A stretch of 64,000 bases of DNA, taken from NCBI GenBank assembly GCA_012728315.1, contig JAAYFI010000065.1, forward strand, positions 81,112 through 145,111. The letters are read 5' to 3'. The notes under the pieces were generated by a model. The model ran no database searches, was not told the DNA's origin, and saw nothing but the letters and a program-made list of their open reading frames with translations. This stretch comes from Gammaproteobacteria bacterium. Lineage in GTDB: Bacteria; Pseudomonadota; Gammaproteobacteria; Pseudomonadales; Pseudomonadaceae. Shown piece by piece: positions 22,665 to 41,602 of this stretch; the first letter of the stretch is position 1, and each line of letters opens with the position of its first letter. The position numbers and the translations under genes were made by a program.

Positions 22665-22740
22665 AAACGGGTTAAGCCTCCACATATCCCGACTTTCAAC
22701 CCGAAGGCACCCAGAAACTCGTGTCGATATGTGTGTGGAT
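22665..22740 (-). promoter_or_regulatory. Structured rpsB 5' leader (candidate S2 autoregulatory RNA)
   Basis: CACATATC (22681-22688) pairs with GATATGTG (22726-22733); CGGGTT (22668-22673) can pair with AACCCG (22698-22703), an interlocking, pseudoknot-like arrangement just upstream of rpsB. Confidence 0.6.
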
Positions 22741-22895
22741 TTTAATGCTCACTCGAACAACTCAAGTGGAGCGGCGCGTTTTATATCATATCTAGCGCCA
22801 ATAGCCAAATTAAAAGTTACCGGCAGCGCCCTAACACCGCACCCCAGTACTGGCAAGTCTCGCATATCAACTGCGCTTGCTTTACTATAAACCCC

Positions 22896-38218: not shown

Positions 38219-39883
38219 ATGTCTCAATACGTTTTCACCATGCACCGTCTCGGCAAAGTTGTGCCACCTAAGCGCGAGATTCTCAAAGATATTTCCTTAT
38301 CCTTTTTCCCAGGCGCAAAAATCGGTGTACTCGGCCTAAACGGCTCAGGTAAATCCACATTGCTGCGCATTATGGCCGGAGTTGACACCGAGTTTAATGG
38401 TGAGGCCCGCCCAATGCCGGGCTTAAATATTGGCTATTTGCCACAAGAACCACAACTCGACCCACAAAAAACCGTACGCGAAACCGTCGAAGAAGCACTC
38501 GGCGAAATTAAAGCTGCACAAGCCCGCCTCGATGAAGTCTATGCCGCTTATGCTGAGCCTGATGCAGACTTTGACGCACTGGCCAGCGAACAAGCCAAGC
38601 TCGAAGCCATTCTCCAAGCAAGCGATGGACACAATATCGAACGCCAGCTGGAAGTTGCTGCTGATGCCCTGCGCTTACCCGCTTGGGACGCTAAAGTTGA
38701 ACACCTATCGGGGGGTGAAAAACGCCGCGTAGCACTATGCCGCCTACTGCTCTCAGCACCAGATATGTTACTACTCGACGAGCCCACCAACCACCTAGAC
38801 GCCGACTCAGTGGCTTGGCTTGAACGCTTCCTACATGATTTCACCGGCACCGTAGTGGCCATCACCCACGACCGTTACTTCTTAGACAACGTCGCCGGCT
38901 GGATTCTGGAATTAGACCGCGGCCAAGGCATTCCATTCGAAGGCAACTACTCACAGTGGCTGGAAGCTAAAGCTGCGCGCTTAAGTCAAGAAGCCAAACA
39001 AGAAGCCTCACACAATAAAGCCATGAAAGCTGAGCTTGAGTGGGTACGCCAAGGCGCGAAAGGCCGTCAATCCAAATCCAAAGCTCGCTTAGCCCGCTTT
39101 GAAGAAATGCAATCACAAGAGTTCCAAAAACGCAGCGAAACCAATGAGATTTATATCCCTGCAGGTGACCGTTTAGGCGATCAAGTCATCGAGGTCAGAG
39201 GTGTGAGCAAGGCCTATGGTGACCGCGTTTTAATTGATAACTTGTCCTTCACTGTACCTAAGGGCGCGATTGTCGGCGTAATCGGTGGTAACGGTGCGGG
39301 TAAGTCCACTCTGTTTCGGATGATCATGGGCACTGAACAACCCGACTCAGGCGAAATCATTATTGGCGAAACGGTAAAGCTCGCCAGTGTCGATCAGCAG
39401 CGTGACAACCTCGATGGTTCAAAAACCGTCTGGGAGCAAATCTCTGATGGCTACGACATGATTAAAGTCGGTAACTATGAAGTGTCTTCGCGTGGTTATG
39501 TTGGACGCTTTAACTTTAAAGGTGCCGACCAACAAAAATTCGTCAAGGACTTATCCGGCGGTGAACGCGGACGCTTGCATTTAGCCTTAACCCTTAAGCA
39601 AGGCGCCAACGTTTTACTGCTCGACGAACCCTCCAACGACCTCGACGTAGAAACCTTACGCGCACTGGAAGAAGCCTTGCTGGACTTCCCAGGCTCTGCC
39701 ATTGTGATCTCCCACGACCGCTGGTTCCTTGACCGTATCGCCACGCACATCTTGTCTTATGAAGATGACTCCAGCGTCGTATTCTTCGAGGGTAACTACA
39801 CAGAATACGAAGCAGATCGCAAGAAGCGCCTAGGGGATGCCGCCGCACAACCCAAGCGCGTACGCTATAAACGCTTAGCCTAA
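38219..39883 (+). CDS. ettA: Energy-dependent translational throttle protein EttA (ABC-F)
   Basis: Two ABC domains (GLNGSGKSTLLR, GGNGAGKSTLFR), LSGGEKRRVALCRLLL, FEGNYSQWLEAKAARL. Confidence 0.97.
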   Translation: MSQYVFTMHRLGKVVPPKREILKDISLSFFPGAKIGVLGLNGSGKSTLLRIMAGVDTEFNGEARPMPGLNIGYLPQEPQLDPQKTVRETVEEALGEIKAAQARLDEVYAAYAEPDADFDALASEQAKLEAILQASDGHNIERQLEVAADALRLPAWDAKVEHLSGGEKRRVALCRLLLSAPDMLLLDEPTNHLDADSVAWLERFLHDFTGTVVAITHDRYFLDNVAGWILELDRGQGIPFEGNYSQWLEAKAARLSQEAKQEASHNKAMKAELEWVRQGAKGRQSKSKARLARFEEMQSQEFQKRSETNEIYIPAGDRLGDQVIEVRGVSKAYGDRVLIDNLSFTVPKGAIVGVIGGNGAGKSTLFRMIMGTEQPDSGEIIIGETVKLASVDQQRDNLDGSKTVWEQISDGYDMIKVGNYEVSSRGYVGRFNFKGADQQKFVKDLSGGERGRLHLALTLKQGANVLLLDEPSNDLDVETLRALEEALLDFPGSAIVISHDRWFLDRIATHILSYEDDSSVVFFEGNYTEYEADRKKRLGDAAAQPKRVRYKRLA

Positions 39884-39939: not shown

Positions 39940-40041
39940 GACATAGAAAACCACTGGACATCCATACAATCAAGTACAATACTAGTGGTGCTTAAACAGC
40001 CCCCTCCCATTAGGCGCCGATACCGGCAAAGGAGTACAAGC

Positions 40042-40209
40042 ATGAGTCAGCGTGAAAACAAGCGCACCAACAAAGCCAAGTCTATTGTTGCTCAACCGCT
40101 GTTTCGCAGCCGCCAAGAGCAACCTAAAAAAGGCAAAGGCAGCTACCGCCGCAACCAAAAAGCCTCTCGGTTTAATAGCCCAGAGGCTTTTGTTTTTCTA
40201 GCAGCATAA
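40042..40209 (+). CDS. arfA: Alternative ribosome-rescue factor ArfA
   Basis: 55 aa MSQRENKRTNKAKSIVAQPLFRSRQEQPKKGKGSYRRNQKASRFNSPEAFVFLAA carrying the PLFRxRxEx(2-3)KKGKGSYxR ArfA core; RBS GGAG upstream. Confidence 0.85.
   Translation: MSQRENKRTNKAKSIVAQPLFRSRQEQPKKGKGSYRRNQKASRFNSPEAFVFLAA
40158..40197 (+). terminator. Intrinsic terminator/RNase III-type hairpin embedded in the arfA ORF
   Basis: AAAAGCCTCT (40158-40167) pairs perfectly with AGAGGCTTTT (40182-40191), followed by GTTTTT, upstream of the arfA stop codon. Confidence 0.85.
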
Positions 40210-40318: not shown

Positions 40319-41602
40319 ATGCCTGCGCGTTTACCTTTATTTTTTGCTGCAATCTGCATCAGCTTATTCACCTATCAAGCTGGAGCCAGCACATCTTCTC
40401 CAGTGGTAACGCCTGCCATCTCAGCTATAACGCAAACCAGCCCCGCACCCCTGACCCAACAAAGCTTTGCGCAGTGGCGTGCAGCTTTACGTATGGAAGC
40501 ACTCAACCAAGGCATTACCCCTTTACTCTTTGAGCAGGCCTTTGCGGGGCTAAGCCCTGACCCACAAGTGCTGGCTGCCGATCAAAGTCAGCCGGAGTTC
40601 AGCCGCCCTGTTTGGGAGTATTTAGACAGCGCGGTATCCTCTTGGCGCGTTGCTCGCGGTAAAGCGCTGCTCGCCGAGCACGCCAAAACCCTACAAGCCA
40701 TTGAAGAGCGTTTTCAAGTTGATCCCAGTGTTTTAGTAGCGGTTTGGGGTATGGAAAGCAGCTTTGGCCGCCAAATTGGCAGCAAAAACGTGATTCGTTC
40801 GCTCGCCACCCTCGCCTACGAAGGTCGCCGCAGCGATTTCTGGCGAGGCCAGCTGATTGCCGCGCTGCATATTTTACAAGAAGGCGATATTGCCATAAAC
40901 GGCATGATTGGCTCGTGGGCCGGCGCCATGGGGCAGACCCAGTTTATGCCCAGCACCTATCGCCAATACGCAATCGACTTTGATGGTGACGGTCGACGAG
41001 ATATTTGGGGATCGAGCGCTGATGCCCTCGCCTCAGCCGCAAACTACCTGCGTTTATCTGGCTGGCAGCATCAACAATCCTGGGGCTTTGAGGTGCAACT
41101 ACCCACCCGTGGTTTTGATTATGCACTGGCCGATGGTGAACACAGCATGAGCCTACAGCAATGGCTTGATTTAGGTGTGATCCCACGCGATAGCAGCGAT
41201 GCGCGCAATATAACGCAAGATGTTGCAACCTTATTTCTGCCCAGCGGCCACCAAGGCCCTGCTTACTTACTGCTGAATAATTTTCGCAGTATCTTAAAGT
41301 ACAACAACTCCACCTCCTATGCGCTGGCCATAGGCTTGCTCGCCAATGCCTTGCAAGGCGATTATCGCGTACCGAGCAACTGGCCAAAGCATGATCGTAT
41401 GCTAAGCCGTCAAGAACGCATTGAATTGCAAACGCTGCTCAACCAGTTGGGTTTTGATAGTGGTAAACCGGATGGAATTATCGGGGTCAACTCACGCCAA
41501 GCTGTGCGTGGTTTTCAAAAAACACAAGGCCTACCCGCCGATGGCTATCCTAACGAAGCCATTCTCAATAGCCTGCGTCGGGTGGCAGCTCAGCGGCCTT
41601 AG
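40319..41602 (+). CDS. Lytic murein transglycosylase (MltB family) with C-terminal peptidoglycan-binding domain
   Basis: AVWGMESSFGRQIGSKNVIRSLATLAYEGRR, MIGSWAGAMGQTQFMPSTYRQYAIDFDGDGRRDIW, C-terminal PG_binding_1. Confidence 0.94.
   Translation: MPARLPLFFAAICISLFTYQAGASTSSPVVTPAISAITQTSPAPLTQQSFAQWRAALRMEALNQGITPLLFEQAFAGLSPDPQVLAADQSQPEFSRPVWEYLDSAVSSWRVARGKALLAEHAKTLQAIEERFQVDPSVLVAVWGMESSFGRQIGSKNVIRSLATLAYEGRRSDFWRGQLIAALHILQEGDIAINGMIGSWAGAMGQTQFMPSTYRQYAIDFDGDGRRDIWGSSADALASAANYLRLSGWQHQQSWGFEVQLPTRGFDYALADGEHSMSLQQWLDLGVIPRDSSDARNITQDVATLFLPSGHQGPAYLLLNNFRSILKYNNSTSYALAIGLLANALQGDYRVPSNWPKHDRMLSRQERIELQTLLNQLGFDSGKPDGIIGVNSRQAVRGFQKTQGLPADGYPNEAILNSLRRVAAQRP

Follow-up and report, generated by a model that had tools for sequence, protein, structure and literature searches.

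Here we report that the arfA gene, which codes for a backup factor in ribosome rescue and lies in a 64,000-nucleotide (nt) stretch of Pseudomonadaceae DNA (contig JAAYFI010000065.1, positions 81,112 to 145,111; the whole stretch is hereafter referred to as the window), contains a terminator-like hairpin within its own reading frame and encodes, downstream of that hairpin, a Leu-Ala-Ala end resembling that of the ssrA tag. The anatomy of the locus, the covariation of the hairpin and the purifying selection that acts on the two C-terminal residues are observed, and together they suggest that the ArfA product is probably subject to two layers of negative control: tagging of a non-stop product by transfer-messenger RNA (tmRNA), and an Ala-Ala degradation signal (degron) hard-wired into the full-length protein. 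As usually described, ArfA control consists of tmRNA tagging of the truncated product, with the full-length protein a by-product lost through its hydrophobic tail; a selected Ala-Ala end would make the full-length form a likely second lock instead, and would point to a candidate protease signal. The elements of the locus are as follows.

40028..40034, + strand: Shine-Dalgarno-like AAAGGAG, 7 nt upstream of the ATG, assigned by reading the sequence.
40042..40209, + strand: arfA open reading frame (ORF), 55 amino acids (aa) plus TAA, assigned from the PF03889 match, the PDB ArfA chains and the translation.
40096..40152, + strand: conserved ArfA core PLFRSRQEQPKKGKGSYRR, entirely upstream of the hairpin, assigned from the translation, the family match and relatives.
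40158..40191, + strand: in-frame hairpin, with outer stem 40158-40167/40182-40191, inner stem 40169-40172/40177-40180 and loop 40173-40176.
40192..40197, + strand: GTTTTT tract (GUUUUU in RNA), read from the sequence; the predicted mRNA 3′ end lies about here.
40198..40206, + strand: codons CTA GCA GCA for Leu-Ala-Ala, present in read-through transcripts only; an ssrA-like C-terminal degron candidate, on the basis of conservation and selection.
40207..40209, + strand: TAA stop codon, downstream of both the hairpin and the U-tract.

The ORF (translation MSQRENKRTNKAKSIVAQPLFRSRQEQPKKGKGSYRRNQKASRFNSPEAFVFLAA, followed by the stop) encodes ArfA. It matches the curated family profile PF03889 at 42.9 bits (E = 3.3e-11; curated cut-off, 25.5 bits) and the solved E. 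coli ArfA chains in the PDB (E about 3e-5), and it contains the KGKGSY core; NCBIfam profiles gave zero matches to this protein and are uninformative. The original prediction of a 55-aa ORF with an ArfA core is thus borne out. Because the core ends at 40152, upstream of the hairpin, a transcript stopping at the U-tract would still code for the whole core, and truncated ArfA protein is active in E. coli.

The same prediction described a perfect 10-base-pair (bp) stem and then GTTTTT, all upstream of the stop codon, and this is confirmed: AAAAGCCTCT (40158-40167) is the reverse complement of AGAGGCTTTT (40182-40191), and an inner 4-bp stem beyond one mismatch brings the helix to 14 bp overall. 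The minimum free energy of 40155-40198 is −19.2 kcal/mol, compared with −6.8 on average for shuffled sequences (z = −5.33; none of 200 shuffles was as low). Across 34 Pseudomonadaceae hairpins, the 14-bp stem shows standard pairs in 90.5% of cells, two-sided changes in 8 of the 14 stem pairs and a covariation score of 0.246, which lies above all 500 shuffles (0.125) and above the slid controls (at most 0.127). With its GC-rich stem and ensuing U-tract, the segment 40158-40197 has the composition of an intrinsic terminator; its absence from the list of a simple terminator scan is probably due to that scan's loop limit of 8 bases. The gap from the end of the U-tract to the TAA is 9 nt, and an mRNA ending at about 40192..40197, as predicted, would yield a non-stop product ending near ...EAFVF.

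The tail that follows the stem differs among lineages. In the window's genus the stem is followed by a U-rich tail, many other Pseudomonadaceae genera have strong stems and poor U-tracts, and in f38, a second, Halomonadaceae-like family of the Pseudomonadales, the arfA hairpin encloses the stop codon and has no clear U-tract. Since the f38 stop codon lies inside the hairpin, a non-stop message there would have to arise by cleavage within the stem rather than by termination downstream of it, and these differences suggest that lineages may vary in the truncation step, some using termination and some RNase III. It is possible, though in our judgement somewhat unlikely, that RNase III rather than intrinsic termination creates the non-stop end, with the U-tract being secondary. 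RNase III is encoded in the window's genome, it is the enzyme that mainly cuts arfA in E. coli (PMC3989581), and the poor U-tracts of many Pseudomonas genes and the f38 hairpins fit this explanation, whereas the U-rich tail in the window's genus and the P. aeruginosa hairpin, which a review reports to be below the length of known RNase III substrates (PMC13159725), argue against it. The f38 loci, for example L010, L175 and L179, hold the stop codon within very stable hairpins, with z values down to −9.9.

We compared the C-terminal ends of ArfA in three sets of genes: 101 from the Pseudomonadaceae (17 genera), 24 from f38, and 30 from the order to which genome G931 belongs, which we read as Enterobacterales. 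Ala-Ala ends the protein in 87 of the 101 Pseudomonadaceae genes, in all 10 genes of the window's genus and in 24 of 24 genes from f38, whose tails bear no relation to those of the Pseudomonadaceae and also vary among themselves. A chance LAA ending is ruled out by the background, in which 8 of 626 ORF products end in AA and 1 in LAA (ORFs with a minimum length of 150 aa, identified with a simple ORF caller in the window and in four related genomes). A trait common to the Gammaproteobacteria is ruled out by the Enterobacterales genes, of which none (0/30) has the ending; the few ArfA matches outside the sampled groups (L116-L118) also lack it. Pseudomonadaceae tails extended in frame (g125, part of g3, and L037) mostly keep the AA end, as in GPEKLAA, APPKLAA and ERAA, and it is absent from some longer tails (L013, L017, L027, L034, L067 and L108). 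The non-AA Pseudomonadaceae genes include seven near variants (LAG four times, IAV twice and MVA), while others differ (LTS, KLP, RAC). The short-tailed exceptions IAV and MVA resemble the tag variants LVA and AAV, which are used as degrons (PMC9382460).

The pattern of codon changes indicates that the Ala-Ala end, encoded downstream of the hairpin, is under purifying selection at the peptide level. A tree was built from the 93 nt upstream of the tail in 90 short-tailed genes. On this tree, the first two bases of each Ala codon underwent 1, 2, 0 and 2 changes (5 over four non-degenerate sites), compared with 27 and 20 at the third bases (47 over two degenerate sites), a contrast of about 19-fold per site, based on parsimony counts on a short and weak tree. 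The third bases are close to the rate of the 3′ flank (positions +6 to +17; mean, 28 changes), and with the first two bases nearly frozen, selection therefore acts on the peptide. The two codons right after the stem and the post-stop sequence vary freely, except for TT in the U-tract. Selection on a peptide encoded downstream of the hairpin implies that full-length ArfA is made in nature and that its C-terminal end matters. We consider it very improbable that a constraint on DNA or RNA, such as pairing with an upstream CGCCGC or the context for termination, preserves the GCN GCN codons, with Ala-Ala as a by-product: some sequences (L213) allow GGCGG to pair with CCGCC and the f38 Ala codons lie within the hairpin, but each of the four Ala codons occurs at both positions, and the third-base changes rule out a DNA-level constraint in the Pseudomonadaceae.

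The window's genome has a tmRNA, whose tag, ANDENYGAQALAA, ends in ...ALAA, and it encodes SspB, ClpX and RNase III. Its ClpX carries the motifs GYVG, ITRDVSG and GGRKHP, which, by residue counting against the E. coli sequence, would hold residues Y153/V154, T199/V202 and R228/H230. In ClpX these residues contact the Ala-Ala-COO− terminus of ssrA, the most important element of the tag for ClpXP, and natural proteins with Ala-Ala ends are targeted to ClpXP (PMC7652416). As Ala-Ala is the main ssrA determinant and full-length ArfA is unstable in E. coli, we infer that the -AA end acts as a hard-wired degron, with degradation carried out by ClpXP or by a different protease that recognizes a C-terminal Ala. 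That the C-terminus is instead a degron for a protease other than ClpXP (such as Tsp, Lon, FtsH or ClpAP), or reflects general hydrophobic-tail instability as in E. coli, is conceivable but doubtful. The instability of full-length E. coli ArfA, which two terminal Asp residues relieve, is put down to its hydrophobic C-terminus (PMC3989581), and neither ClpX nor ClpP is needed for the in vivo degradation of GFP with a short ALAA end (PMC8512704); however, the ClpX contact motifs are conserved, it is Ala-Ala itself that is under selection, and the tails of f38 are non-hydrophobic (HRQAA, HNAA), and a general hydrophobic signal would need neither of the latter two.

We propose the following double lock. 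In the first layer, the in-frame hairpin and U-tract would end or truncate the mRNA upstream of the stop codon, as is presumably the case in the window's species; ribosomes would stall at the mRNA 3′ end, tmRNA would add ANDENYGAQALAA to the nascent ArfA and the tagged protein would be degraded, with untagged, active, truncated ArfA appearing only upon failure of trans-translation. In the second layer, read-through transcripts would encode about three extra residues ending in hydrophobic-Ala-Ala, this end would mimic the part of the ssrA tag that ClpX binds, and normally terminated full-length ArfA, born with a degron, would likewise be removed. On our best reading, the hard-wired -AA degron would thus close the loophole left by read-through. 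The strong covarying hairpin and U-tract before the stop, together with the presence of tmRNA, SspB, ClpX and RNase III, support at the sequence level the original prediction of a failsafe layout as in E. coli, and the LAA ending, which it had proposed as a degron-like feature, proves to be conserved in related arfA genes far above background and under protein-level selection.

Three observations weigh against the double lock: 14 of the 101 Pseudomonadaceae ArfA genes are without the AA end; U-tracts are weak in many Pseudomonas arfA genes, so that truncation perhaps does not occur by termination everywhere; and RNA constraint may contribute in f38, where the Ala codons sit inside the hairpin. 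The double lock would be relevant to P. aeruginosa, whose arfA hairpin is short for RNase III according to the available part of the review (PMC13159725). Since a single Ala-Ala-recognizing protease would clear the tagged and the read-through forms of ArfA alike, the ArfA level in Pseudomonadales could report saturation of that protease as well as tmRNA failure, and in species with weak U-tracts the degron, rather than tagging, could be the main brake, an extension that we regard as improbable.

ArfA matches were found in 349 of 399 sampled genomes of the window's family (f1, which we read as Pseudomonadaceae). Most of the family has ArfA, and two of its genera, g124 and g127, gave no match in any listed genome, making them candidates for lineage-specific loss or divergence. 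In the window, arfA is flanked by putative genes, named from their translations, for an ABC-F ATPase (38219-39883) and a lytic-transglycosylase-like protein (about 40319-41602). ArfA also occurs in phage records. In Pseudomonas phage pf16 (KU873925.1), an unannotated 47-aa ORF (L211:353-496; PF03889 E = 1.9e-20) stops directly after the core, with a weak 9-bp hairpin overlapping the stop; since it has no long tail, its product may escape host tmRNA control. In Salmonella phage Arash (OQ632216.1), gp99c (L212:281-505), annotated as 'ribosomal protein L2', is ArfA (PF03889 E = 5.6e-19) with a short tail ending in VKAYL. The unverified, P. aeruginosa-associated record of Pseudomonas phage Y3 (OQ572405.1; L213:395-547) holds a bacterial-type ArfA gene with the hairpin and the end SFVMAA, which is probably host DNA in the record. 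Elsewhere in the window, t44 RNA (RF00127, 72.1 bits) at 22671-22755 on the − strand is the sole Rfam match at the gathering threshold.

Hairpins of arfA were reportedly surveyed by Schaub et al. in 2012, who are said to have found intrinsic termination in Neisseria. The non-stop circuit itself is already known, from E. coli ArfA and, by convergence, from BrfA (PMC6881298). New here are the conserved ssrA-like ArfA end and the selection on that end, of which we found no mention in the literature searched, the key 2011-2012 arfA papers lying outside its coverage. In E. coli arfA (YhdL), an in-frame hairpin makes the mRNA non-stop, and truncated ArfA is tagged and degraded (PMC3989581). The window's gene resembles it in its ArfA core, the hairpin in its 3′ coding region, the expected tmRNA control and the expected instability of the full-length protein, but differs in having a U-tract and an ssrA-like Ala-Ala end that is under selection, whereas the E. 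coli mRNA is mainly cut by RNase III and the instability of its full-length product is assigned to the hydrophobic tail (PMC3989581). B. subtilis brfA similarly has a Rho-independent terminator in its coding region and a tmRNA-tagged product, and BrfA-FLAG accumulated from terminator-less constructs; however, BrfA is an unrelated protein, and the available part of that report describes no C-terminal degron (PMC6881298). P. aeruginosa arfA (PA3990) belongs to the same family as the window's gene, and the available part of a 2026 review (PMC13159725) reports a hydrophobic C-terminus and an upstream hairpin, mentions no ssrA-like end and gives no data on the effect of the short hairpin. Finally, the end of the window's ArfA is like ssrA-type ClpXP degrons, which have a C-terminal Ala-Ala-COO− usually preceded by a hydrophobic residue (PMC7652416). 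Unlike other Ala-Ala degrons, this candidate signal is encoded just past a terminator-like hairpin, in a gene whose truncated product should itself acquire the genuine ssrA tag.
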